Shown piece by piece: positions 39,772 to 52,307 of a stretch of 64,000 bases of DNA. The DNA comes from Alphaproteobacteria bacterium. GTDB taxonomy: Bacteria > Pseudomonadota > Alphaproteobacteria > UBA828. Below the pieces are notes generated by a model, which saw only the letters and a list, made by a program, of their open reading frames with translations, did not search any database and was not told the origin of the DNA. The translations under genes were made by a program, and so were the position numbers. The stretch is taken from the NCBI GenBank assembly GCA_011523425.1, contig WTGU01000050.1, forward strand, positions 39,965 to 103,964, in the 5' to 3' direction. Within the stretch, counting starts at the first letter, position 1. Every line of letters starts with the position of its first letter.

Positions 39772-39775
39772 ATGA
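39647..39775 (+). CDS. Possible leader peptide overlapping sdmB-like gene
   Basis: A 42-codon frame, Arg-rich (10 Arg), that starts at an ATG with an ideal GGAGG seven bases upstream (39635-39639). Its TGA overlaps the ATG of the next gene (ATGA). No family is recognised. Because the dehydrogenase gene lacks its own obvious ribosome-binding site, reading through this small frame could drive its translation (inference). Confidence 0.4.
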   Translation: MEIRGRWEREGARIRAAAGALVMRPAAARDRPPGPPDGNRHR

Positions 39776-40932
39776 CTTCGGGATCGAGCATACCGGCGGG
39801 CTCTTCGATGCCGCCCGTATTCGTGACCGGTTCGGCCGGGCATGTCGGCGCCAACCTCGTGCGCCGGCTGCTCGACGAGGGCGTGCCGGTCCGGGTGCTG
39901 CTGAGACACGGCGACAACAACGAGGGCCTGGAGGGTCTCGAGGTCGAGCGCGCCTACGGCGACATTCGCGATCTGGATGACACCAGGCGGGCGATCGCGG
40001 GGTGTCGGGGCGTCTACCACTGCGCGGCCTACGTCTCGACCATCGCAGGCAACCGCGCCCATCGCCGCGACCTGTTCGAGTGCAACGTTCTCGGCACCCG
40101 CAACGTGCTGCAGGCGGCGCGGGAGGCGGAGGCCGGCCGGGTGGTCGTGACCGGCTCGTTCAGCGCGGTCGGATACGACCTGGACGATCCGTCCGCTCCC
40201 AGCAACGAGACCATGCAGTTCTATCCCATGGAGCGCACGATGCCCTACGAGCGCAGCAAGTCGCTCGTCGAGCAGGAGTGCTGGCGCGCGGCGGCAACGG
40301 GACAGGACGTGGTGGTCGCGACCTGTTGCGCGGTGGTGGGGGGCGCCGACTTTCTCCCCTCGCGACTGGGAAGAACCCTGTGCGACTACACCAACGGCAA
40401 GCTCCGTGCCTACGTCGATGGCGGGTTCGAATTCGTCGCGGCCCGCGACATCGTCGAGGGGCACGTGCTCTGCATGCGCCACGGCCGCTCGGGCGAAAAG
40501 TACATCTTCAGCACCGAGTACAAGACCATCTCCGATATCCTGGATCTCTTCGAGGAGGTCTCGGGCGTCCCGCGGCCACGCCGGCGCATGCCGACCCGCC
40601 TCATGCTCGTCTTTTCCGAGATCGCGAGCTTCTATCTGAGCCGGGTCCATCCGGGCTTTCCGCAGCGTTTCACCCCCGGCGCCATCCGCCTGTTGCAAAA
40701 GCGCCGCCATGCCGACATCTCCAAGGCGAAACGGGAGCTCGGCTATCGGCCGACCGGCCTCCGCGCCGCGGTTCATGAGGCCTACGCGTTCCACTACGGC
40801 CGCAACAAGATCGCGAACCCGCACGCGAAGCGCCCGCGCGACGACGGCGCGAGGCGCGTTGTCGCGCCTGAGGAGGGCGATCCCGTGCCGGACCAGGGCA
40901 TGCGGATGATGGCAGGCGGGAGCGCGACGTGA
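39772..40932 (+). CDS. NAD(P)-dependent 3-beta-hydroxysteroid dehydrogenase-like protein (SdmB-like)
   Basis: A 386-residue extended SDR. PVFVTGSAGHVGANLVRRLLDEG binds the cofactor; VYHCAAYVS and VVTGSFSAVGYD follow; the catalytic Tyr-x3-Lys is in PYERSKSLVEQ. Late segments (DILDLFEEVSGVPRP and RADISKAKRELGY-like HADISKAKRELGYRP) are typical of 3-beta-HSD/sterol-4-alpha-carboxylate dehydrogenases. In Methylococcus, SdmB oxidises the C-4 carboxylate/3-hydroxyl during C-4 demethylation. First main gene of the sterol operon; an internal start at 39808 is possible. It overlaps the Rieske gene by 4 bases (GTGA). Confidence 0.8.
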   Translation: MTSGSSIPAGSSMPPVFVTGSAGHVGANLVRRLLDEGVPVRVLLRHGDNNEGLEGLEVERAYGDIRDLDDTRRAIAGCRGVYHCAAYVSTIAGNRAHRRDLFECNVLGTRNVLQAAREAEAGRVVVTGSFSAVGYDLDDPSAPSNETMQFYPMERTMPYERSKSLVEQECWRAAATGQDVVVATCCAVVGGADFLPSRLGRTLCDYTNGKLRAYVDGGFEFVAARDIVEGHVLCMRHGRSGEKYIFSTEYKTISDILDLFEEVSGVPRPRRRMPTRLMLVFSEIASFYLSRVHPGFPQRFTPGAIRLLQKRRHADISKAKRELGYRPTGLRAAVHEAYAFHYGRNKIANPHAKRPRDDGARRVVAPEEGDPVPDQGMRMMAGGSAT

Positions 40933-42029
40933 AGGCGGCGGCCTCCTCGACACCGCCCGGCTTCGAGGATGCCGGCAACCTGCGCCAGCAGGCGCGCGCC
41001 GCGGGCATGGACCCGAACTACTGGTACCCGGTCGAGGAGGTGCGCCGGATCAAGCCGGAGACGGTGGTCGAGGTCGTTTTCTGGAAGCGCTCCATCGCGC
41101 TCTTTCGCGGTAAGGACGGCACCTTCCAGGCGGTCGAGGATCGCTGCGCGCATCGCCAGCTCAAGCTCTCCCTCGGCGATGTGCAGGGATGCCGGCTGGT
41201 CTGCGCCTACCATGGTTGGGAGTACGGCGGGAAGGGGCGTCCCGCCGGGGTGCCCCACGACCGCCAGGGGCAAGTCTTTCCGAACCTTGCGCTCAAGACC
41301 TACCCGGTGAAGGTCCGCTACGGCCTGATCTGGCTCTTCCCGGGGGATCCGGCGCTGGCGGAGGAGCGCCGGATTCCGGACATTCCCGAGCTCGAGGGAC
41401 CCGGCCGCTGGGCCTGCGTGCCGCTCTGCTTCACCTGGTCGGCACACCACTCGATGGTGATCGACAATGTGAGCGACTTCACCCACGCGCACCTGCACCG
41501 GCGCTACCGGCCCTTCGACGGAGCCACCCTCACCCGCTGCGAGACCCTCGGCGACGACGTGCATCTCGCCTACGACACGCACGTCGGTCGCGGGCCCATC
41601 TCGAGCCTCTTCGTCGATCATCGGCGGCTCGACACCAACCGCATGGAGCTTTGCTACGAGTACCCCTACCAGTGGTCGAACACCGATGACGCGATCAAGC
41701 ACTGGCTCTTCGTGCTGCCGGTCGATGAGCGCACCAGCCGGGTGTTCTTCCTGTTCTACTTCAAGTCTCTGAAGATTCCGCTGCTGCCCGTGCGCATTCC
41801 CCGTTTCGCCATGACCGCGGTCATGAAGGTCTCCAACCGTCTGCTCATCGCGCCCCTGCTCACCCAGGACCAGTTCGCGCTGGAGGCGGAGCAGGAGGGG
41901 TACGAGAGGCACTGGGACGCCCGTCCCGTCGAGTTCAATCCGGTGGTCCGCGCCTTTCAGAAGGTGACCGTGCGCAAGTGGCGGGAGCATCTGGCGCGCG
42001 AAGCGGAGAGCGGCGATGCCGCCGCCTGA
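40929..42029 (+). CDS. Rieske non-heme iron oxygenase (SdmA-like sterol C-4 oxidase)
   Basis: A 366-residue Rieske oxygenase. Cluster ligands are C73-x-H75 and C92-x2-H95 (RCAHRQ and CAYHGW). The mononuclear iron site follows in DNVSDFTHAHLHRRY. Sequence and context resemble bacterial SdmA, which oxidises a C-4 methyl group of sterols with oxygen; a neighbouring SdmB-like gene supports this. A general Rieske ring hydroxylase is the alternative. Start is GTG, overlapping the upstream stop. The 3' end overlaps the reductase gene by 14 bases. Confidence 0.8.
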   Translation: MKAAASSTPPGFEDAGNLRQQARAAGMDPNYWYPVEEVRRIKPETVVEVVFWKRSIALFRGKDGTFQAVEDRCAHRQLKLSLGDVQGCRLVCAYHGWEYGGKGRPAGVPHDRQGQVFPNLALKTYPVKVRYGLIWLFPGDPALAEERRIPDIPELEGPGRWACVPLCFTWSAHHSMVIDNVSDFTHAHLHRRYRPFDGATLTRCETLGDDVHLAYDTHVGRGPISSLFVDHRRLDTNRMELCYEYPYQWSNTDDAIKHWLFVLPVDERTSRVFFLFYFKSLKIPLLPVRIPRFAMTAVMKVSNRLLIAPLLTQDQFALEAEQEGYERHWDARPVEFNPVVRAFQKVTVRKWREHLAREAESGDAAA

Positions 42030-43116
42030 AGCGCTCGATCTCTCGTCGGCGCTCTCGGGCGAGACCTTGCTCGAGGCGGCGGCGATGGTGCTGGGGTTCA
42101 TCGCCCTCCTCTTCGTGGTTTCGCTGATCCTGCCGGGGCGCCGCATCACGGGCCCGGATGCCGACGGGAACGAGCGCGTCTACAAGCTCAACGGCCTTGC
42201 GCTCTTCGTCATCACCCTGCTCGTGGCGGGCCTCGCCCAGGGCTTCGGCTGGTTCTCCCTCTCGGTGCTGCACACCCACCTGCTCGCCCTCTTCGTCGTG
42301 GCGAACGGATTCGCGTTCGCGTTCTCCGGCTGGCTCTACCTGCGCGGGGTGCTCAGGCCCCGTTCGGAGTCCGGGTCCTGGCGGGACTTTTTCGACGGGG
42401 TGGACGCCGCTCCGTACTGGCTCGGGCTGGATATCAAGCTCTTCAGCTACTGCCCCTCCCTCATCGGCCTGGCGCTCTTCAACGCATCGTTTGCCGCCGT
42501 GCAGTACGAGACCTACGGCGAGCTGACCCTGGCGATGATGCTCTACCAGACCTTCACGTTCCTCTACGTGCTCAACTACTTCCAGTTCGAGCAGGGGATG
42601 ATCCATACCTGGGACATCGTCCGCGAGCGCTTCGGCTGGAATCTGGTCTGGGGCGACTACGTGCTGGTGCCCTTCTTCTACTGTCTCCCCGGCTGGTGGC
42701 TGGTCCACGCGCCGGAGCCGCTGTCGCCCGCCGCCGCCGGCGGGATCGTCGTGTTCTTCCTGTTCGGCTTCTGGATCTTCCGCGGTTCCAACCAGCAGAA
42801 GCACCGCTTCAAGCGCGACCCCACTGTCAAGATCTGGGGGCAACCCGCCAAGACCCTGGACGGGCGCCTCCTCGTCTCCGGCTTCTGGGGCATCGGGCGG
42901 CACCTCAACTATACGGGCGAGATCTGCGTCTACCTCACTTTCGCCCTCACTACCGGGTTTGTCTCCTGGGCTCCGTTCCTGTTGCCGGCGTGGGTCGCGG
43001 GTCTGCTGTGGCACCGTTCGATACGCGACGAGCGCCGCTGCCGCGCCAAGTATGGCGAGCTGTGGGAGCGCTACACGCAGAAGGCCCGCTTCGCGATGCT
43101 GCCCTTCATTCACTGA
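42016..43116 (+). CDS. Delta14-sterol reductase, ERG24/ERG4 family
   Basis: A 366-residue polytopic membrane protein with about eight hydrophobic segments. The C-terminal block is diagnostic of the ERG4/ERG24 family: LLVSGFWGIGRHLNYTGEI, then HRSIRDERRCRAKYGELWERYTQKARFAMLPFIH. The earlier FNFFYMFWYVI-like region reads KLFSYCPSLIGLALFN. These enzymes reduce a sterol double bond with NADPH; next to CYP51 the delta14 bond left by 14-alpha-demethylation is the natural substrate. A delta7 or delta24(28) reductase is not excluded. Confidence 0.88.
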   Translation: MPPPEALDLSSALSGETLLEAAAMVLGFIALLFVVSLILPGRRITGPDADGNERVYKLNGLALFVITLLVAGLAQGFGWFSLSVLHTHLLALFVVANGFAFAFSGWLYLRGVLRPRSESGSWRDFFDGVDAAPYWLGLDIKLFSYCPSLIGLALFNASFAAVQYETYGELTLAMMLYQTFTFLYVLNYFQFEQGMIHTWDIVRERFGWNLVWGDYVLVPFFYCLPGWWLVHAPEPLSPAAAGGIVVFFLFGFWIFRGSNQQKHRFKRDPTVKIWGQPAKTLDGRLLVSGFWGIGRHLNYTGEICVYLTFALTTGFVSWAPFLLPAWVAGLLWHRSIRDERRCRAKYGELWERYTQKARFAMLPFIH

Positions 43117-43124
43117 GAGCGGAG

Positions 43125-44534
43125 ATGGCCAACCCGTCCCACAGCATGGCGACCCTGCCTTCGGCGGATCTCCCGCCGCGGGCGGACGAGACACTTCCCG
43201 AGCTCGCGGGCAGGTGGCCGCTGCTCGGCCATCTGCCGGAGTTCCAGAGGGATCCGGTCGCCATGTTGAGCCGCGGCTGGCGCGAGCATGGCGAACTCTT
43301 CCGTTTCCGGCTCGGGACCCGCGCGTTCGTCCTCTTCACCGGGCCCCAGGCCCACGACTTCTATTTCAGGACGCCCGAGGAGCAGCTGAACGCCAAGGCC
43401 GTCTACCGCTTCACCGTCCCCATCTTCGGACGCGGCGTCGCCTACGACACCTCCCCCGAGATCATGGCGGAGCAGCTCGGCTTTCTCTTCCCTGCGCTTC
43501 GCGAGGCGGCCATGCGCAGGTTCGCCCTCATCATGTTCGAGGAGGCGCGGCAGTTCGCCGACGCCCTCGGCGACCATGGGGAAATCGATCTGCCGCACGC
43601 GATGAACGAACTCACGGTCAAGATCGCAAGCCGCTGCCTGATCGGACAGGAAGTCCGCGACCGGGTGGACACCGGCTTTGCCGAGACCTACCACGACCTG
43701 CAGAAGGGCATTAACACCCTGGGATTCTTTCTGCCCAATCTTCCCGTCGCGTCGCATCGGCGGCGCGACAGGGCCCGGCGAAGGGTGGCGGAGCTCTTCG
43801 GGCAGATCATGGCGGCGCGCCGGGACGCCGGGGCCAGCCCCGACGACTTCATGCAGACGCTCATGGACGCCCGGTACAAGAATGGCCGCGCTCTGAGCGA
43901 CGACGAGATCACGGGGATCCTGCTCACGGTGCTGTTCGCGGGCCAGCACACCAGCGCGGTGCTCGCGACCTGGACCGGTCTGGAGCTGCTCAGGGCGCCG
44001 TCCTACCTGGGGCGGGTGAGAGACGAGGCGCAGGACGTCTACCGCGAAGCGGGCTCCATGAGCATCGACAGCCTCCAGCGCCAGCCGGTACTGGAGAACG
44101 CCGTCCGCGAGTGCGAGCGGCTGCACCCGCCGCTAATATTGCTGATCCGGAAGGTGCTCGAGCCCCTGCGCTACGGAGACCGTGTGGTGCCCGCCGGCAC
44201 CATGGCCATGGTGTCGCCGGCGGTCTCGCATCGCCTGCCCCACATCTTCGCCGACCCCGAGCGCTTCTTCCCCGACCGTTTCGCGTCTCCCGCCTGCGAG
44301 GACAAGCAACACCGCTACGCCCTGATCGGCTTCGGCGGCGGCAAGCACGCGTGCATGGGGAAGAACTTCGCGTACATGCAGCTCAAGGCGATCTGGACCG
44401 TTCTGCTCGATCGCTTCGACTTCTCCCCCAGCGGCGCCTTTCCGCGTCCGAACTACGGCAGCTGGGTGACCGGACCCGAGAGACCGTGCCGCGTCCGCTA
44501 CCGTCGCCGCGCGCAGCCGAGCGTCTTCCGATGA
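43125..44534 (+). CDS. cyp51: Sterol 14-alpha-demethylase, cytochrome P450 CYP51
   Basis: A 469-residue P450 lacking a membrane anchor. AVYRFTVPIFGRGVAYD is the CYP51 B'-helix signature. The I-helix oxygen motif AGQHTS covers about residues 272-277. ExxR is in RECERLHPP, and the heme Cys410 in FGGGKHACMGK. CYP51 removes the 14-alpha-methyl of lanosterol-type sterols through three oxygen-dependent steps. Gene order between a delta14-reductase and an oxidosqualene cyclase confirms the pathway. Its TGA overlaps the ATG of the fused cyclase gene. Confidence 0.95.
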   Translation: MANPSHSMATLPSADLPPRADETLPELAGRWPLLGHLPEFQRDPVAMLSRGWREHGELFRFRLGTRAFVLFTGPQAHDFYFRTPEEQLNAKAVYRFTVPIFGRGVAYDTSPEIMAEQLGFLFPALREAAMRRFALIMFEEARQFADALGDHGEIDLPHAMNELTVKIASRCLIGQEVRDRVDTGFAETYHDLQKGINTLGFFLPNLPVASHRRRDRARRRVAELFGQIMAARRDAGASPDDFMQTLMDARYKNGRALSDDEITGILLTVLFAGQHTSAVLATWTGLELLRAPSYLGRVRDEAQDVYREAGSMSIDSLQRQPVLENAVRECERLHPPLILLIRKVLEPLRYGDRVVPAGTMAMVSPAVSHRLPHIFADPERFFPDRFASPACEDKQHRYALIGFGGGKHACMGKNFAYMQLKAIWTVLLDRFDFSPSGAFPRPNYGSWVTGPERPCRVRYRRRAQPSVFR

Positions 44535-47500
44535 GCGACGCCGCGTCGCGGCGTTACGACGTGGCCATTGTCGGCGCGGGGCCGGTAGGGAGCCTGTGCG
44601 CGCTCGCACACGCGCGGAAGGGCGCCCGGGTGGCCCTGCTCGAAGCGAACCCCAAGGCGTCCGGGCGCCTGGCGGGCGAATGGCTGCATCCGCCGGGCGT
44701 GCGGATACTGCAGGACTTCGGGATCGGGCTCGACACCCTGCCTCGCAGCACCGCGGGCAAGGGATTCGTGGTGTTTCCCGATGACGGCTCGGAGCCGATC
44801 GTCCTTCCCTACTTGAACGGCTCGCAGGGTCTGGCCTGCGAACATGCGCTGCTCGTCTCGAAGCTGCGGGAAGCCGCGGAGAACGAGACGGATGTGGACC
44901 TCTTCACCCACGCGCGGGTGAGTGCGGTCGAAGACGGGCGGTTGGCCTATACCAACAACGGCACGGTTCACTCCCTCGACGCCGAGCGGATCATCGGCGC
45001 CGACGGCCGGGTCTCGATCGTGCGCCAGTCCCTGGGCCTGTCGACGGAGCCGGTTCACTGCTCGCGGATGCTGGGGATCACCGTGAGCGACGTGAGCCTG
45101 CCCTTCGAGGGTCACGGGCACGTGCTGCTCGGCGGGCCGGGGCCGATTCTCGCATACGGTCTGGCAAACGATTGCGTCCGGATCATCGTCGACGTTCCGC
45201 TGGACCGCTGGACGCGCCAGGACCGGGTCGGCTTCCTGACGGAATCCTATGCAACGCTGCTGCCGGAGGCTCTCAGGCCGGCGTTCGTCGACGCGGTGCG
45301 CGCGGGGCAATTCCACGTTGCGGCCAATCAGTTGCGGCCGCGCGTCACGTACGGCACCCCGCGTCGCGTGCTGATCGGCGACGCGGCCGGGCACTACCAT
45401 CCCATGACAGCGGTTGGCATGACCCTCGGCTTCGGCGATGCGCTTGCCCTCGCCGAGGGCGGGAGCTTTCGCGACTTCGCCGCCGGGCGTTTCCGGGCGA
45501 CCCGCGTGCCGGAGATGCTCGCCATGGGGCTCTACGAGGTCTTTGCCGATCATCGGGCCGAGGCGGTGGCGATGAGACACGCGGTCTACTGGGGATTGCG
45601 GGCGAACTCCGATTACCGGGAGCGGACAACGCGGATTCTCGCCTGCGAAGACCGATCCGCGTTCGTCATGGGTCTCGCGTTTTTCGGAACGGCGGCCCGG
45701 GCGGCGGTTGTGGAGATTCCGCTCTCCTTCCGCCGGTTCGCGCCGCGTCAGGGCCTGAAGATCTTCGGGGCGCTCGCCGTTCGTCTCCTGTGGCTCCTGC
45801 GCTGGGCTCTGCAGCTGCGCCAGTCGCGACGCCAGGGCGGGCAGAATGACGAGCGGGCCCTGGACAGCCTGTCCCGCGCGCTTCTGCACTCCATGCCGCC
45901 GAGACTCGACGCGTCCGGGCAAGGCCGGCCGAAGGACGCCGAGGCGCCCGACGCCGGTCCGACGTTGGAGCGCGCGACCGCGCGCCTCCTGAGTCTCCAG
46001 GGCGAGGGCGGCGGCTGGGAAGGCGAGATGGTCTGGTGCCCCATGCTCACCGCGCAATACGTGCTGCTGCACCACATCATCGGGCAGCCGCTCGAGCCCG
46101 GCCGGCGCCGGCGCGTGCTGCGCTCCTTCGAACGGACTCGTCTCGAAGGGGGCTCATGGGGCCTGCACGAGCACTCGTCGCCCCACCTCTTCGTCACCGC
46201 CCTGGTCTACGTCGCGGCGAGACTGCTGGGCGTCGAGCGGGACGATCCCCTGATCGAGCCGGCCCGACGCTTCATTGAGGCCGAGGGGATCGTGGGCATT
46301 CCGAGCTGGGGGAAGTTCTGGCTGGCGCTCCTCAATCTTTACGACTGGCGCGGGGTCAACGCCGTTCTGCCGGAACTGTGGAGCCTGCCGCGCCGCTTAC
46401 CCCTGCACCCCTCGAACTGGTACTGCCACACCCGGCTCATCTACATGGCCATGGCGGCGATCTACCCCCATCGCTTCCAGGCGCCCGTCACGCCGTCGAT
46501 CGCGTCGCTGCGGGAGGAGCTGTTCCCCCAGGGATTTGCCGAGGTGGATTTCTCCGCCGCCCGCGATCGCCTGCGGGAGGCCGACCTCTACGCCCGGCCG
46601 GGCGTGTGGCTCAAGGTCGGATACAAGATTGCGCGCGTGTTCGATCGGCTCCACAGCAAGCGCCTGCGTGCCCGATGCACGGAGGCGATCGTCCGGCAGA
46701 TCAGATGGGAGCTGCGAACCACCAGCCATACGAGCATCTCTCCGGTGAGCGGCCTCCTCAACATGCTTGCGCTCTGGCTGCGCGATCCGGACGACGCCGA
46801 CCTCCACCGGGCGCTCGCGAAGCTGGACGACTGGATCTGGGAAGACGAGGAAGAGGGTGCGCGAGTCGTCGGCGCGAGAAGTGCCTCGTGGGACAGCGGC
46901 TTTGCGCTGCAGGCGCTGGCGGCGGTGCCCGCGTTCGACGGGGTGGGGGACGCGCTGCGGCGCGGCGCCGACTTCCTGCTCGGAGAGCAGATCGCCGCGA
47001 GCTTCGACGGGTTTCGCGAGGCCTATCGAAGCGACCCCAGGGGCGGCTGGTGCTTTGCCGGGGGATGGCACGGCTGGCCGGTGAGCGACTGCACTGCGGA
47101 AGCGGTGCTCGGACTTCACGCTGCCGGTCGCGGTGCTGCGCACGCGGGCGCGTTGCGCGATGCGGTCGGGTTCATGCTGCGCTGCCAGAACCGCGACGGC
47201 GGATTCGGCAGCTACGAGGCGCGGCGCTCGGCCTTCGGTCTGGAGTGGATGAATCCGGCCGAGATGTTCGGCGACTCGATGACCGAGCAATCCTACGTCG
47301 AGTGCACCGCGTCCTGCCTCGCGGCGTTCGCCGCCTGCGTGGAGGAGGTTCCGCACAGCGCGGATGGGGCGGTGACGGGCGCGATCGCTCGGGGCGATGC
47401 CTGGCTGCGCCGGACCCAGGCGAGCGACGGCTCCTGGCGCGGCGTGTGGGGGGTTCAGTTCATCTACGGCACGCTCTTCGGGGTCAGGGGTCTTCTCGCC

Positions 47501-47956
47501 GCCGGGGCCAGCCCCGGCGATCCGGCGCTGCGCTCGGCCTGCCGCTGGCTGCTGGAGCGCCAGCGGAAAGACGGGGGATGGGGCGAGCACCACAGCGGAT
47601 GCCTGAGCGGCCGGTACGTCCCGCACGAGGAAAGCCAGGTCATCCAGACCGCGTGGGCGTTGATCGCGCTGCTCGAGGCGGGCGAATCGAACTGGACCGC
47701 GATTGCGCGGGGCGCCCGCTTCCTGCTCGACACGCTGGACGAGGACGGGACATGGCCCAAGCAGGACATGGCGGGCGTGTTCTTCCGAACGGCGCTCCTG
47801 GATTACGTGCTCTATCGACAGTATTTCCCGCTGCACGCGTTGGCCCTCTACGAGCAGCGCCGCCGCGAGCGGCTGGGTCTCGCCACGCCCGCCCCCTGCA
47901 CCACCGCCGCACCGCCGCCCCCGCCGGAAGCGGCTCTCGCCTGTTCCCAGTCCTGA
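44531..47956 (+). CDS. Fused squalene epoxidase - oxidosqualene cyclase
   Basis: A single 1141-residue frame with two complete enzymes. Residues 1-~450 are an FAD monooxygenase of the squalene-epoxidase type: DVAIVGAGPVGSL at the N-terminus, ADG at 157-159, and GDAAGHYHPMTAVGMT from residue 283 (the second FAD motif). A hydrophobic segment (LLWLLRWALQL) then precedes a polar linker. Residues ~478-1110 are a triterpene cyclase: D853-C-T-A-E857 is the catalytic acid motif of oxidosqualene cyclases, with LEWMNPAEMFGDSMTEQSYVECT and several QW repeats (QNRDGGFGSY, QRKDGGWGEH). Val851 two residues before the Asp is the lanosterol-synthase choice. The ATG overlaps the CYP51 stop. An internal Met455 (base 45893) could in principle start a free cyclase but has no clear Shine-Dalgarno sequence. 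Confidence 0.93.
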   Translation: MSDAASRRYDVAIVGAGPVGSLCALAHARKGARVALLEANPKASGRLAGEWLHPPGVRILQDFGIGLDTLPRSTAGKGFVVFPDDGSEPIVLPYLNGSQGLACEHALLVSKLREAAENETDVDLFTHARVSAVEDGRLAYTNNGTVHSLDAERIIGADGRVSIVRQSLGLSTEPVHCSRMLGITVSDVSLPFEGHGHVLLGGPGPILAYGLANDCVRIIVDVPLDRWTRQDRVGFLTESYATLLPEALRPAFVDAVRAGQFHVAANQLRPRVTYGTPRRVLIGDAAGHYHPMTAVGMTLGFGDALALAEGGSFRDFAAGRFRATRVPEMLAMGLYEVFADHRAEAVAMRHAVYWGLRANSDYRERTTRILACEDRSAFVMGLAFFGTAARAAVVEIPLSFRRFAPRQGLKIFGALAVRLLWLLRWALQLRQSRRQGGQNDERALDSLSRALLHSMPPRLDASGQGRPKDAEAPDAGPTLERATARLLSLQGEGGGWEGEMVWCPMLTAQYVLLHHIIGQPLEPGRRRRVLRSFERTRLEGGSWGLHEHSSPHLFVTALVYVAARLLGVERDDPLIEPARRFIEAEGIVGIPSWGKFWLALLNLYDWRGVNAVLPELWSLPRRLPLHPSNWYCHTRLIYMAMAAIYPHRFQAPVTPSIASLREELFPQGFAEVDFSAARDRLREADLYARPGVWLKVGYKIARVFDRLHSKRLRARCTEAIVRQIRWELRTTSHTSISPVSGLLNMLALWLRDPDDADLHRALAKLDDWIWEDEEEGARVVGARSASWDSGFALQALAAVPAFDGVGDALRRGADFLLGEQIAASFDGFREAYRSDPRGGWCFAGGWHGWPVSDCTAEAVLGLHAAGRGAAHAGALRDAVGFMLRCQNRDGGFGSYEARRSAFGLEWMNPAEMFGDSMTEQSYVECTASCLAAFAACVEEVPHSADGAVTGAIARGDAWLRRTQASDGSWRGVWGVQFIYGTLFGVRGLLAAGASPGDPALRSACRWLLERQRKDGGWGEHHSGCLSGRYVPHEESQVIQTAWALIALLEAGESNWTAIARGARFLLDTLDEDGTWPKQDMAGVFFRTALLDYVLYRQYFPLHALALYEQRRRERLGLATPAPCTTAAPPPPPEAALACSQS

Positions 47957-48003: not shown

Positions 48004-49035
48004 TCAGTCGCGCGAGGGCTCGGGCTTGCGGGCCAGGAAATAGAACATCGGCGTGAAGACGCCGGACCTGCCGCCGTCCACCAGCGCGTCCGCTCCCGCG
48101 TTCAGGATCGTGCTGACCGCGCGGGCGCCCTCGGGAAAGAGCCGAAGCCTTTCCCCGACCCGCAAGGTCAGGTTGGCGAGCGCGCGGCCGGCAGGCGTGC
48201 GCGGAATGCTCGAGAGGCTGAAATCGCGGCCCTGCAAGGCACGGTACCAGGGCATCGCCGGGTCCGCTTCGGGCGCGCGGTCGCGCGCCTCCAGCAGCTC
48301 GAACCCCGCCCCTTGCAATGCGGCGGAGACCTCCGACGTGGTCGCGATATCCGGCAGCCCGTTCCCAATCATGATGTCGTTCTTGATTCGCTGGTGCTCC
48401 GCGTTGGCGGGATCGAAGCTCTCGGTGACGCACCAGTCGTAGCCCGCGAAGCAGGCGCCGGGGCGCAGCACGCGCAAGACCTCGCGGAACGCCGCCGTCT
48501 TGTCGGGCGCGTGGGGCATGGACTCGATCGCGATGGCGGCATCGTAACGGTCGTTATCATCGGGAATCTGCATGTAATCGCCGTGAATGAAGCGGCACAG
48601 CGAGTCGACGCCGCGGGTGTGAAGTTTGGCGCGCTCGATCTGATAGGCGTTGTTGTTGAGGCCGACAAAGCTGGCCCCGGTTTGGCGCGCCAGATTGCCC
48701 ATCGGCCCGCCGACCCCGCATCCCAGATCGATTACCTGCATACCCGGCTTCAGGGACAGATTTTCGGCGAGAAAATGCTGATGCCGGAGCAGCGATGCCT
48801 TGAAGCTCTCGCCCCGCCTTCGGGGAGCGAAGTGAAAGGATTGACCCCAGCCGAACTCGTAGAAGTCGGTGACCAGGTCGTAGTAGCGATTCACGAACGA
48901 GCGGTAATGCTCCTTCCTGCGCTCCGGGCCGGCGTCGTAGATTTCCGTGTATCCATCGACGGCGGACTTCACGTCGTCCGGGGCGAGGTCCGCGAGGGTG
49001 CGCGGTTTCGATCGCGTGGCGGAAGGACGGTTCAT
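48004..49035 (-). CDS. Sterol C-24 methyltransferase (ERG6/SMT family)
   Basis: A 343-residue SAM methyltransferase. HYRSFVNRYYDLVTDFYEFGWGQSFHFAPRRRGESF is the sterol-methyltransferase region I signature. VIDLGCGVGGPMGNLAR is the SAM site. YDAAIAIESMPHAPD corresponds to the conserved region with acidic sterol contact, and a sterol methyltransferase C-terminal domain ends in FTPMFYFLARKP. It would add a methyl to C-24 of the sterol side chain. It is read convergently to the operon, so its expression may be controlled separately. Such genes are rare in bacteria. Confidence 0.92.
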   Translation of the reverse strand: MNRPSATRSKPRTLADLAPDDVKSAVDGYTEIYDAGPERRKEHYRSFVNRYYDLVTDFYEFGWGQSFHFAPRRRGESFKASLLRHQHFLAENLSLKPGMQVIDLGCGVGGPMGNLARQTGASFVGLNNNAYQIERAKLHTRGVDSLCRFIHGDYMQIPDDNDRYDAAIAIESMPHAPDKTAAFREVLRVLRPGACFAGYDWCVTESFDPANAEHQRIKNDIMIGNGLPDIATTSEVSAALQGAGFELLEARDRAPEADPAMPWYRALQGRDFSLSSIPRTPAGRALANLTLRVGERLRLFPEGARAVSTILNAGADALVDGGRSGVFTPMFYFLARKPEPSRD

Positions 49036-49223
49036 CGGCTTATTGTGCCCGATTTGCCCCCCTTTCCCAAGACCCTGAAGTCATGCAAGGCCCTGGCGCC
49101 GCGCTTCCATGCGCCGCCATCGACGGCGTCCCGTGCGCGGCATCGTTGTCCGGGGCGCCAGGCTTTCCATAGGATACAATGCGACGCGCGGCAGCGCTGC
49201 AGCGTCTGAGAGGACCGGATCAC

Positions 49224-49958
49224 ATGCCAGAAGAGCAGGCGGACGGGGCCCCTTCCGAAGCCGGCGCGCACCGAAGCCGGTTGGCGATCCCGCCGGTCGC
49301 GTTCACGGGGCTTGTCATCGCGAGTCTGACCGCGGCCGGCATCGGGGCGCGCTACGGCGTCCGCGGGAATTTTGACGTTATCCATGGACTTCTGATCCTC
49401 TTCTTTTCCGTCAATCTGGTGATCTGCTATTGGGAAATCTGCCTGTTCTTCAGGCGCGACTACATCGAGAAGCGCGCCGAATACTGGCATGAACGCCGGC
49501 AGAAAACAGGCCGAACGTCGGGCATCGAGTTCCTTGTCGGACCTGTTCCGTTGAGGCGAATACTATCCTTGACGACATGGGCAGACGTCTGGGCCACGTA
49601 TTCGCAGTTCGACACTTCGTACACCGACCGGCGCACATATGGTTACAACGTGGACATCGCCAACGGCTTCGTAACGCCGGTGCCTATGCTGATCCTTTTC
49701 GCCGCCTTCACCGTCGACTTCCTGCCCGCCCTCGTCGCCGGCATCATCGGGGCGATGATGTTCTGGCAGTTGGCCTACGCGACATCGGTCTATTGGGTCA
49801 GCTTCTTCGTGGCCAAGCGGCAGAGCCGCATCCGCCGAAAGGACCTCTACATCTACATCTGGGCGCTGAACTGCCCGTGGGTGCTGTTCGCCCTGCTGGG
49901 ACTCTACGTCTCGATTCGCCTGATCGTGAACGGCGACTACAGCGTTCTCGGCTATTGA
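49224..49958 (+). CDS. Integral membrane protein, EBP/EXPERA-like (candidate sterol isomerase)
   Basis: A 244-residue protein with five or six transmembrane helices. I noticed similarity of layout to emopamil-binding protein (sterol delta8-delta7 isomerase): a W..YS.FDTSY segment after the second helix, and near the end LYIYIWALNCPW, where N-x2-W lines up with the Asn-x2-Trp of EBP. The first-helix His/Glu pair of EBP is not in the same place, so the assignment is tentative. Location next to the sterol genes strengthens it. Divergent from the methyltransferase; ATG at 49224 follows GAGAGGA. Confidence 0.45.
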   Translation: MPEEQADGAPSEAGAHRSRLAIPPVAFTGLVIASLTAAGIGARYGVRGNFDVIHGLLILFFSVNLVICYWEICLFFRRDYIEKRAEYWHERRQKTGRTSGIEFLVGPVPLRRILSLTTWADVWATYSQFDTSYTDRRTYGYNVDIANGFVTPVPMLILFAAFTVDFLPALVAGIIGAMMFWQLAYATSVYWVSFFVAKRQSRIRRKDLYIYIWALNCPWVLFALLGLYVSIRLIVNGDYSVLGY

Positions 49959-50226: not shown

Positions 50227-50598
50227 ATGCAGAAGACAGCCGTCATAGACGGTCTCCGGTACGCCAACTGGTCGGACAAGGTATTTCGACAGATGCGCGA
50301 CGGACATGTCGTCGCCATCCATGTCACCATCTGCTACCACGAGAACTTTCGTGAAACCGTCGCGAACATTGCCGCCTGGAGCCGGCGTTTCGATCAGTTC
50401 TCCGAACTGATTTTCCCGCTCCACTCGGCGGACGATGTCGACAGGGCGATGAGGGAGGAACGCACGGCCATCGTGTTCGGCTGCCAGAACCGCTCACCGA
50501 TCGAGAACGACATCGATCTCGTTCGCATATGCCGGCCGCTCGCCCACGGCAACTGGCTGCACTTCTTCCGGGATTCGTTCAGCCCGCAGGGCTCGTGA
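50227..50598 (+). pseudogene. Truncated M19 membrane dipeptidase, N-terminal fragment
   Basis: 123 codons encoding the start of a renal-dipeptidase (M19) family protein: MQKTAVIDGLRYANWSDKVF, then GHVVAIHVTICYHENFRETV and TAIVFGCQNRSPIENDIDLVRI. Homology stops around ICRPLAHGNW and the frame ends soon after, whereas full proteins have over 300 residues with the metal site downstream. The stop overlaps the next start (TGATG). It is probably a deletion remnant; a short functional protein is unlikely. Confidence 0.75.
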
Positions 50599-52307
50599 TG
50601 GGCTGCCCGGCCGATGACCGCGCGATCGGCCCGCTGCGCGCGCCCGAGCACGTCATGCGGCTGGCGCGCATGGGGTCGTCGTTCCAGACACGCCTGAGCT
50701 TCATGCGCCAGTTGATCCGCCGCATGCGGAGCGAGCGGTGGCGGTTCGAGCGCCTCCGTTTCGACCTCGACGCGCGGGGATACGGCACCGCCGTCTACGC
50801 GGTCCACGGCCCGCAGCGGACCTACTCGCTCATCGCGTACACGCACGAGATCCGTCCGGAGCAGCGCACCGACCGCGTGATCGCGGAGGCCTGGGATGCC
50901 ACGTTCTCGTTCTTCGACGGCGTGCCGGACGATGCGGATATCGAACGGTTGCGCGCCAACACGCCGAGGCAGGAGGACGGCCGCTTCACCTCCCGCGAGC
51001 TCACGCTGGCGCGCGCCAACAAGAGCATGCGCCTGTTCGAGCACGTCGTCGAAAGCCTCGCTGCCGGCCGACAGCCCGACGCCGCCCGGCTGGCCGAGGT
51101 CGGCTACCTGATGCGCACGACGGCCGTCTACGGGAGCGGCAAGTTCGGCTGCGCCGACCGTGCCAAGATTGCGGACCGGACCGAGATGCGCGGACCCTTC
51201 CAGGCCGAGATGCTCACGGTCTACCTGATCCGCTGGCTCAGCATCGACCTGGTCAACCATGTGGCGCGTAGCCGGGGCGGCGCGCGGGCCGCTCCTCTGA
51301 ATGCCGACTACGCGCGCTATCTGGGCATCGGCAACGCCACCGGGCTAGGAATGGCGCCCTTCCTCATCAAGCACCCGGTGCTCATCAACAATTGGGTCCT
51401 GGCGCGGGAGACCGCGCTCGCGCGGGTGCGAGCGCTGCCGTCCGCGACCGCCGGTCAGGTCGTCGACTTCATGGCCCTGCTGGACCGCGCCCGCCGCTTC
51501 GTCGGCGAGTGGAACGTCGACGACGCAGCCCAGACGGCGCGCATACGCACGCTGCGCACCGAGCTCGGCGAGCTGGAGAACTGGAGCGAGGCCGGGCTTC
51601 GTCGCTCCCATCCGTGGGACGCGATGTACCGCCACGCCGAGGAAGCCTTCTCCGCCGAGGGGCAGGAGTTCGCCGTCTCGCTGCTGCTCGAGCAGCACGG
51701 CGCGGTCGTGGACGCGCTCGGCGACGAGATGAGCGCCCCGGAGCCGCCCAGGCTCAGGGCGGAGATGTCGCTGGGCGAGCTGCTCGGCATCATCGACGCG
51801 CATTATGGCTGGGCGTTGGCGACCGACTACTCGCGGCCCGAGGCCGTGCAGCGCTTCTGGTATTACTCCGAGGAGAAGCTCGAGCCTCGCGTGGGCGACC
51901 GCCATACCGAGCCGGGCGCCGACCTCGAAATGCCGATCGCGATCGCCCGGGACGTGAGCCGGCTCAGGGACCGGCTTCGCGAATACGACACGGCGCTGAC
52001 GGTCGCCGACTTTCTCGTCGCCGCGCCGGAGTACCGCAGCATCGTCTGGCGGGTGCAGACGGCCTCGGACTGTCCCTACGGCGAGATCCGCGACAATCTG
52101 CTCGGCGCCGGCCAGCGCCCGGTCGACATCCTGCGCTTCAAGCTCTCGTTTTTTGGCGTCGCCAAATTCGACCCGAAGTCCGATCTGTGGACGCGGGTCA
52201 ACATGTATCAGGGCGCGCCGCTGCCGCACGAAATCGCCGAGACGCGCGAGACCGAGTGGGTGTTTCCGACAGGGCCCGCGGCACCGTCGGCCGAGGCGAT
52301 GCCATGA
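50598..52307 (+). CDS. Large conserved hypothetical protein
   Basis: A 569-residue soluble protein, function not recognised. It has a basic N-terminus (MRQLIRRMRSERWRFERLRFD), a VYAVHGPQRTYSLIAYTHEI strand-rich segment, then YGSGKFGCADRAKI, IGNATGLGMAPFLIKHP and a long helical C-terminal part. No signal or membrane segment is seen. It overlaps the DUF3726 gene by four bases (ATGA), so the two probably act together. The ATG at 50598 overlaps the stop of the dipeptidase fragment, suggesting that the three once formed one operon. Codon use resembles the neighbours. Confidence 0.8.
   Translation: MGCPADDRAIGPLRAPEHVMRLARMGSSFQTRLSFMRQLIRRMRSERWRFERLRFDLDARGYGTAVYAVHGPQRTYSLIAYTHEIRPEQRTDRVIAEAWDATFSFFDGVPDDADIERLRANTPRQEDGRFTSRELTLARANKSMRLFEHVVESLAAGRQPDAARLAEVGYLMRTTAVYGSGKFGCADRAKIADRTEMRGPFQAEMLTVYLIRWLSIDLVNHVARSRGGARAAPLNADYARYLGIGNATGLGMAPFLIKHPVLINNWVLARETALARVRALPSATAGQVVDFMALLDRARRFVGEWNVDDAAQTARIRTLRTELGELENWSEAGLRRSHPWDAMYRHAEEAFSAEGQEFAVSLLLEQHGAVVDALGDEMSAPEPPRLRAEMSLGELLGIIDAHYGWALATDYSRPEAVQRFWYYSEEKLEPRVGDRHTEPGADLEMPIAIARDVSRLRDRLREYDTALTVADFLVAAPEYRSIVWRVQTASDCPYGEIRDNLLGAGQRPVDILRFKLSFFGVAKFDPKSDLWTRVNMYQGAPLPHEIAETRETEWVFPTGPAAPSAEAMP

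Follow-up and report, generated by a model that had tools for sequence, protein, structure and literature searches.

The stretch of DNA analysed here, 64,000 nucleotides of contig WTGU01000050.1 in the alphaproteobacterial assembly GCA_011523425.1 (the window), harbours at 44531-47956 a gene in which a squalene epoxidase and an oxidosqualene cyclase are joined in one reading frame, flanked by candidate genes for later steps of sterol synthesis. From sequence and structure models, the 1141-residue product is predicted to be a bifunctional membrane enzyme of the MsbE kind, which would epoxidise squalene and cyclise the epoxide, likely to lanosterol; we put the probability of this reading at about 0.86. 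MsbE (record MT026193.1) was reported in 2020 from the msb cluster of a gammaproteobacterium that lives in symbiosis with the sponge Melophlus sarasinorum (PMC7074536), whereas the window belongs to an alphaproteobacterium. The likeness of the two lies in domain order and neighbour set, as given in the published description. The fusion is a real, conserved and functional-looking enzyme of a kind already published, and the novelty implied by a preliminary description of the locus, in which the two genes were said to be separate in the known sterol-making bacteria, has been overtaken by the 2020 report. The new points are the breadth of its distribution, a corrected junction, relatives in which the enzymes are naturally split, a minimum of two changes between the fused and split states, and a neighbouring protein of the EBP fold.

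The fused protein and its junction

Translation of 44531-47956 gives 1141 residues and a single terminal stop, and the start codon overlaps the stop of the preceding P450 gene (ATGA at 44531). Four Pfam domains exceed their curated cut-offs, namely FAD_binding_3 (residues 9-308), SE (154-391), SQHop_cyclase_N (480-773) and SQHop_cyclase_C (784-1108), while the motifs GDAAG and DCTAE begin at residues 283 and 853. Each half matches one human enzyme in both sequence and predicted fold, squalene monooxygenase (SQLE, 6c6n) and lanosterol synthase (1w6k), which are separate proteins in humans but one chain here; the domain folds are predicted with fair confidence. The epoxidase half passes the Pfam SE cut-off and has the SQLE fold in the model, the cyclase half reaches the general cyclase model TIGR01787 of NCBIfam (495.6 bits, cut-off 322.7), and the epoxidase precedes the cyclase in a single frame, as in MsbE. 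Two whole, normally sized enzymes in one predicted polypeptide are supported by this sequence evidence, which bears out the preliminary description as to the 1141-codon frame, the flavin adenine dinucleotide (FAD) motif at 283, the D853CTAE motif and the normal length of both enzymes.

The fusion alignment comprised 162 sequences from a protein search and 240 once loci from named genomes had been added; locus frames were picked by the word DCTAE, so that the counts for D853 and C854 gain nothing from the loci. Residues D853, C854, C925, H633, Y895, V851, G283 and D284 are kept in 162 of 162 and 240 of 240 fusions, respectively, and G15 and G17 in all 228 rows extending that far. Locus L050, excluded by the DCTAE rule, has DCTGE and retains the Asp and the Cys. 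Human D455, C456 and C533, which we take to be the catalytic Asp-Cys and second Cys of lanosterol synthase, map by alignment to D853, C854 and C925 of the window. Val851 sits at the position of human Val453 and suggests lanosterol as the cyclase product.

The preliminary description had placed the split near Met455. Among 24 split epoxidase and cyclase pairs, which were matched only by equal size of the longest contig so that adjacency is inferred, 19 have a cyclase whose first Met aligns with residue 471 or its neighbour, and an epoxidase that ends just before it; the cyclases of the other five (P0184, P0211, P0169, P0203, P0130) start elsewhere. Since most split cyclases begin at or near residue 471, the boundary lies near there and Met455 falls within the epoxidase tail. 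The split epoxidases have most of the same C-terminal tail. In one such pair, P0287 with P0192, the cyclase is 72% identical to that of the window over the shared part and the epoxidase tail is the same, yet the enzymes are two proteins where the fusion is one. The interdomain tail spans 89-100 residues (median 94, n=240 fusions) and contains in the model two helices (405-432 and 438-450) followed by a low-confidence stretch at 460-468, as judged by pLDDT. Residues 7-433 align to human SQLE 122-571, and because the match extends to residue 433 most of the interdomain stretch is the epoxidase's own; the second helix and the 460-468 stretch remain beyond it.

Distribution and history of the fusion

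Among 5.8 billion proteins searched there were 1285 matches. Of the 120 listed, 119 represent the complete fusion, with 1104-1168 residues and 69-96% identity, the remaining one being a 996-residue partial (P0024); the database search for further fusions suggested in the preliminary description was thereby answered in the affirmative. Sixty genomes were searched as relatives, the own genome included, and the fusion was present in three of seven same-genus genomes and in none of the 52 others, whose matches were hopene-cyclase-like proteins or flavoproteins at about 23-54% identity. One congener (L006; L033 is the same contig) carries an in-frame TAG near residue 650, in the cyclase half, and represents either a degenerate copy of the gene or a fault of the assembly. 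When named genomes were scanned, 261 stretches matched and 222 of them were confirmed; the locus counts given here concern the best 80. In 76 of these the frame runs for 1100 residues or more without interruption, the exceptions being L033 and three loci on contigs that end in or near the gene (L080, L098, L111). By NCBI names the 80 loci comprise 47 Pseudomonadota (25 Gamma- and 22 Alphaproteobacteria), 8 Actinomycetota, 6 Nitrospirota, 6 Chloroflexota, 3 Gemmatimonadota, 2 Acidobacteriota, 2 Binatota, 1 Rhodothermota, 1 Bacteroidota and 4 without rank, nine phyla in total. A sponge is named in the titles of only two of them (L034 and L068); for some of the others we presume a sponge origin from their bin names, and the window bacterium is itself likely to be sponge-dwelling.

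The trait is rare at large. Counted as genomes with a match at E 1e-60, it occurs in 6 of 385 genomes of the class to which the window belongs, its own genome among them, and in 1 of 398 of a phylum sample, which is the own genome. The phylum of G763, entered via a Gemmatimonadetes locus, gave 5 of 200, some cut by contig ends, and the class of G762, entered via an Acidimicrobiia locus, 1 of 148, G762 itself. In the class of G761 (via a Pseudohongiella locus) 6 of 369 genomes matched, three with the fusion, one with the halves on separate contigs and two with a cyclase match only, and in the class of G765 (via a Chloroflexota locus) 15 of 197, eleven fused (one cut short) and four hopene-cyclase-like at 30-33%.

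The relation between fused and split forms was addressed in a combined tree of both enzymes minus the tail (39 hand-picked rows, 1011 columns). The distant fusion L132 had the split pair L133 and L136 as its sister (support 100/99), and the other 28 fusions fell with 8 split pairs in one clade (100/100). In the approximately unbiased (AU) test a single clade of all 29 fusions was rejected (p 5e-95), whereas a clade of the 28 main fusions (p 0.518) and a clade of the 8 split pairs (p 0.226) were not, and therefore at least two changes between the fused and split states are needed. Both two fusions and an older fusion with later fissions remain compatible with these trees. An origin by joining of neighbouring genes is plausible because close relatives have two separate genes; the stop codon may have been lost in this lineage, as proposed earlier, or gained by the split relatives, and a junction at Met455 is not supported.

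Other trees were less informative on this point. A FastTree of cyclases with a distant hopene-cyclase root (329 rows: 245 fused, 67 split, 9 unclear, 8 outgroup) placed seven split cyclases basally and 46 in one inner clade; its labels were set by length, L006 and L033 being mislabelled as split by the in-frame TAG and several short entries being possible gene-call fragments. A cyclase-only tree, for which 45 of 46 hand-picked rows were used (L134 dropped out) and L135 was left out, did not settle the deep branching order and gave L124 a branch of 5.24. In an earlier tree L134 and L124 had been dropped, their cyclase frame not being found, and L135 had a branch length of 10; L124 was also left out of the combined tree. 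On a quick tree of named loci (79 rows, 12 without class) the class label changes 9 times against a minimum of 7, and because of this the fusion gene seems largely to have stayed within classes since its spread; rampant recent transfer between classes is not claimed. A viral carrier was considered and set aside: eight stretches fit a pattern and none encodes a relative. Cyclases also occur on plasmids. In Planktothrix agardhii plasmid p2 (NZ_LR882940.1; L123) a separate one is 57% identical to that of the window, and its vicinity includes an FAD monooxygenase, a squalene/phytoene synthase and three P450 entries; on a plasmid of Streptomyces sp. YIM 121038 (L124) one of 41% identity adjoins a squalene/phytoene synthase and an FAD oxidoreductase.

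Neighbouring genes and published clusters

The features of the locus are collected in Table 1. The set of oxidoreductase, Rieske protein, sterol reductase, P450, fusion and sterol C-24 methyltransferase (SMT) that marks the MsbE type is present in the window. The two C-4 demethylation candidates have SdmB (NF052578, 295.6 bits) and SdmA (NF052579, 403.7 bits) as their best NCBIfam models, in both cases below the cut-off of 600. The protein at 49179-49958 has the EBP fold in prediction and scores 8.2 bits against the Pfam EXPERA cut-off of 25.7; 8 of 16 members of its family match EXPERA weakly (best E 0.0076), one matches DUF1673 (E 0.00096), and a profile search of solved structures with this family did not recover EBP.

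Table 1. Predicted features of the sterol gene locus, in window coordinates
Feature	Position	Strand	Basis
SdmB-like NAD-dependent oxidoreductase, C-4 demethylation candidate	39772..40932	+	Pfam Epimerase, 3Beta_HSD
SdmA-like Rieske oxygenase, C-4 demethylation candidate	40929..42029	+	Pfam Rieske, VanA_C
Sterol C-14 reductase candidate, ERG4/ERG24 family	42016..43116	+	Pfam ERG4_ERG24, E 6.9e-67
Cytochrome P450, CYP51-type sterol 14-demethylase candidate	43125..44534	+	Pfam p450, E 1.1e-58 for 43188-44531; start inferred from frame
Epoxidase half, residues 1-384: FAD-dependent squalene epoxidase (squalene monooxygenase) domain	44531..45682	+	
Epoxidase C-terminal tail, residues 385-470	45683..45940	+	Model secondary structure, pLDDT, alignment to human SQLE, presence in split epoxidases
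Cyclase half, residues 471-1141: oxidosqualene cyclase, lanosterol-synthase type	45941..47956	+	D853, C854, C925, H633, V851
Sterol C-24 methyltransferase (SMT) candidate	48004..49035	-	Pfam Sterol_MT_C, E 7e-19; methyltransferase domains
Membrane protein of EBP fold, candidate sterol delta8-delta7 isomerase	49179..49958	+	

Only 47 of the 80 loci have a full 10 kb on both sides. Scored at 40% identity or more, 53 of the 80 carry all four upstream genes next to the fusion, 40 carry the SMT and 26 a gene of the 49179-49958 type. At L083 a 39% CYP51-like match begins just ahead of the fusion. Ten neighbour proteins of fusions lacking the cluster (four at L084, five at L093, one at L055) were scanned and none was a known sterol enzyme; they include a leucine-rich repeat (LRR) protein at L084 and a DUF2855 protein and a methyltransferase at L093. 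The own genome also has three SQS_PSY genes (G000:C77:6095-7722, G000:C101:17190-17951), of a family that includes phytoene synthases, two of them in tandem as in hopanoid operons, together with a hopene-cyclase-like gene at 30% identity; therefore hopanoids are likely to be made by this bacterium too. Beyond the sterol genes, a 123-residue piece of an M19 dipeptidase (50227-50598, plus strand), which covers positions 34-127 of the 319 in the profile, overlaps a frame of 592 residues that matches no Pfam family (50529-52307, plus strand); the dipeptidase gene seems to be broken or truncated.

Similar clusters have been described in sponge symbionts. In Ircinia symbionts, clusters of steroid genes (CSG) are reported from 115 of 537 genomes and from 10 phyla, with transfer inferred; they have consecutive ERG24, CYP51 and LSS, with SMT or FDFT1 downstream on the opposite strand (Kelly et al. 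2022, PMC9531527), and both they and the msb cluster carry a sterol 14-demethylase at the same place as the window P450 (PMC7074536, PMC9531527). Squalene epoxidase has no occurrence in the main text of the Ircinia study, where the cyclase gene is labelled lanosterol synthase alone, and the LSS alignment of 3765 positions fits the length of the fusion (PMC9531527). We infer that the Ircinia LSS is the fusion; this would account for a survey that gave lanosterol synthase and no squalene epoxidase, both being likely in one gene. Fused squalene monooxygenase/oxidosqualene cyclase (SMO/OSC) homologs, the same fusion as in the window, are also among the cyclases collected by Brown et al. 2023 for a study of SMT, in which one sentence of the methods tells that their N-termini were trimmed for the tree (PMC10070321). 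In the published account of msb no isomerase is named and the genes at both ends of the locus are without resemblance to sterol genes (PMC7074536), whereas the window has the EBP-fold candidate.

Alternative readings and significance

If the fusion works as predicted, a single protein of about 125 kDa would be made, in which the FAD-dependent epoxidase domain would convert squalene to its epoxide and the cyclase domain would close the epoxide, likely to lanosterol. The tail of human SQLE and lanosterol synthase occupy the same membrane face; the epoxidase tail and the cyclase of the fusion may do likewise, so that oxidosqualene would move between them through a shared membrane patch. The neighbours would then take off the methyl groups at C-14 and C-4, reduce C-14, move the double bond of the ring and alkylate C-24. 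Bifunctionality is supported by the single frame, the kept catalytic residues, the structure matches of both halves to the human enzymes, the narrow range of tail length, the recurrent sterol genes, fusions in nine phyla and the three SQS_PSY genes. Direct hand-over of the epoxide from epoxidase to cyclase, the main inference of the preliminary description, is a hypothesis.

An artefact of assembly or sequencing can practically be dismissed as the source of the join. The genome is a metagenome bin (3.62 Mb in 159 contigs, 99.25% complete), which might favour such an error, but the join recurs in three of seven congeners and, among the loci from other genomes, in 76 of 80, some on contigs of more than 1 Mb (L064, L085, L092), and because the same join is present in independent genomes chance or error is excluded. 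It is very improbable that translation restarts inside the gene to yield two separate enzymes. Met455 in the window and the existence of split relatives would be compatible with a restart, but position 455, Met in 183 of the 240 fusions, is otherwise occupied by Ile (46), Val (8) or Leu (3), the 20 bases ahead of Met455 in the window hold no Shine-Dalgarno-like stretch, and any Met at aligned positions 466-478, where most split cyclases begin, is found in only 16 of 240 fusions (GTG and TTG codons excluded). A restart at Met455, which the preliminary description had itself named as a possible refutation, was rejected on the variability of the position and the missing Shine-Dalgarno-like stretch.

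Several observations weigh against a bifunctional lanosterol-forming enzyme of the MsbE kind. The model for bacterial 2,3-oxidosqualene cyclases, TIGR03463, is not reached (746.8 bits, cut-off 851), and the available text of PMC7074536 reports no measured activity, protein or product for MsbE. Nor was a biochemical test of the fusion found in the literature searched (including PMC4919349, PMC13277303 and PMC10202945, as far as their available text goes), although papers beyond it may hold one. In the cyclase, human Cys449, Trp230 and Thr381 are replaced by His847, Tyr631 and Ala782, and because of the first two replacements a product other than lanosterol is possible. Neither CYP51 nor ERG24 is present at 40% identity or more in the DNA covered at 20 of the 80 loci, eight of which have 10 kb on both sides (L045, L055, L060, L065, L067, L083, L084, L093; Acidimicrobiia and Gemmatimonadetes among them). 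His847, Ala782 and these eight loci would suit a cyclase half that yields another triterpenol, such as parkeol or cycloartenol. We consider this unlikely, as Val851 is invariant in the 240 fusions and is the type of residue from which MsbE was assigned as a lanosterol cyclase (PMC7074536), and as the P450 and C-14 reductase share the cluster with the fusion. The close relatives with both enzymes as separate proteins imply that fusion is not required. Nonsynonymous substitution (dN) in the tail is below synonymous (dS) in two congeners (L004, 0.100 versus 0.237; L005, 0.087 versus 0.224), which speaks for the bifunctional reading. It is close to synonymous in three more distant relatives (L034, 0.361 versus 0.407; L036, 0.435 versus 0.528; L038, 0.372 versus 0.358), and the tail is therefore loosely constrained. 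Separate enzymes in relatives and a loosely constrained, partly low-confidence stretch between the folded domains both favour a fusion that serves only equal dosage and joint membrane targeting, with oxidosqualene escaping to the bulk membrane and no hand-over. The narrow range of tail length across 240 fusions speaks against this, if weakly, since split epoxidases retain most of the tail, and we regard the chances of such a fusion without hand-over as even.

The fusion is best seen as an arrangement that is widespread but already known, with a bearing on the question of which organisms make sponge sterols. It offers a natural single-chain enzyme that may turn squalene into lanosterol, and its natural fused and split versions allow a side-by-side comparison of channelling. 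The EBP-fold neighbour is a candidate for the step left open in msb (PMC7074536) and given to ERG2 in Ircinia (PMC9531527). Side-chain-alkylated steranes have been taken as early animal fossils, an interpretation that bacterial sterol clusters complicate (PMC10070321). A wider proposal, which we hold to be doubtful at present, is that sponge symbionts from nine or more phyla have acquired the fusion by its spread, and that it commits squalene to a bacterial pathway complete up to C-24-alkylated sterols. In this proposal the epoxide would be handed over within the protein, and an EBP-fold isomerase missed by family searches would take part. If true, the symbionts would be a source, besides the sponge, of sponge sterols and their fossil biomarkers.
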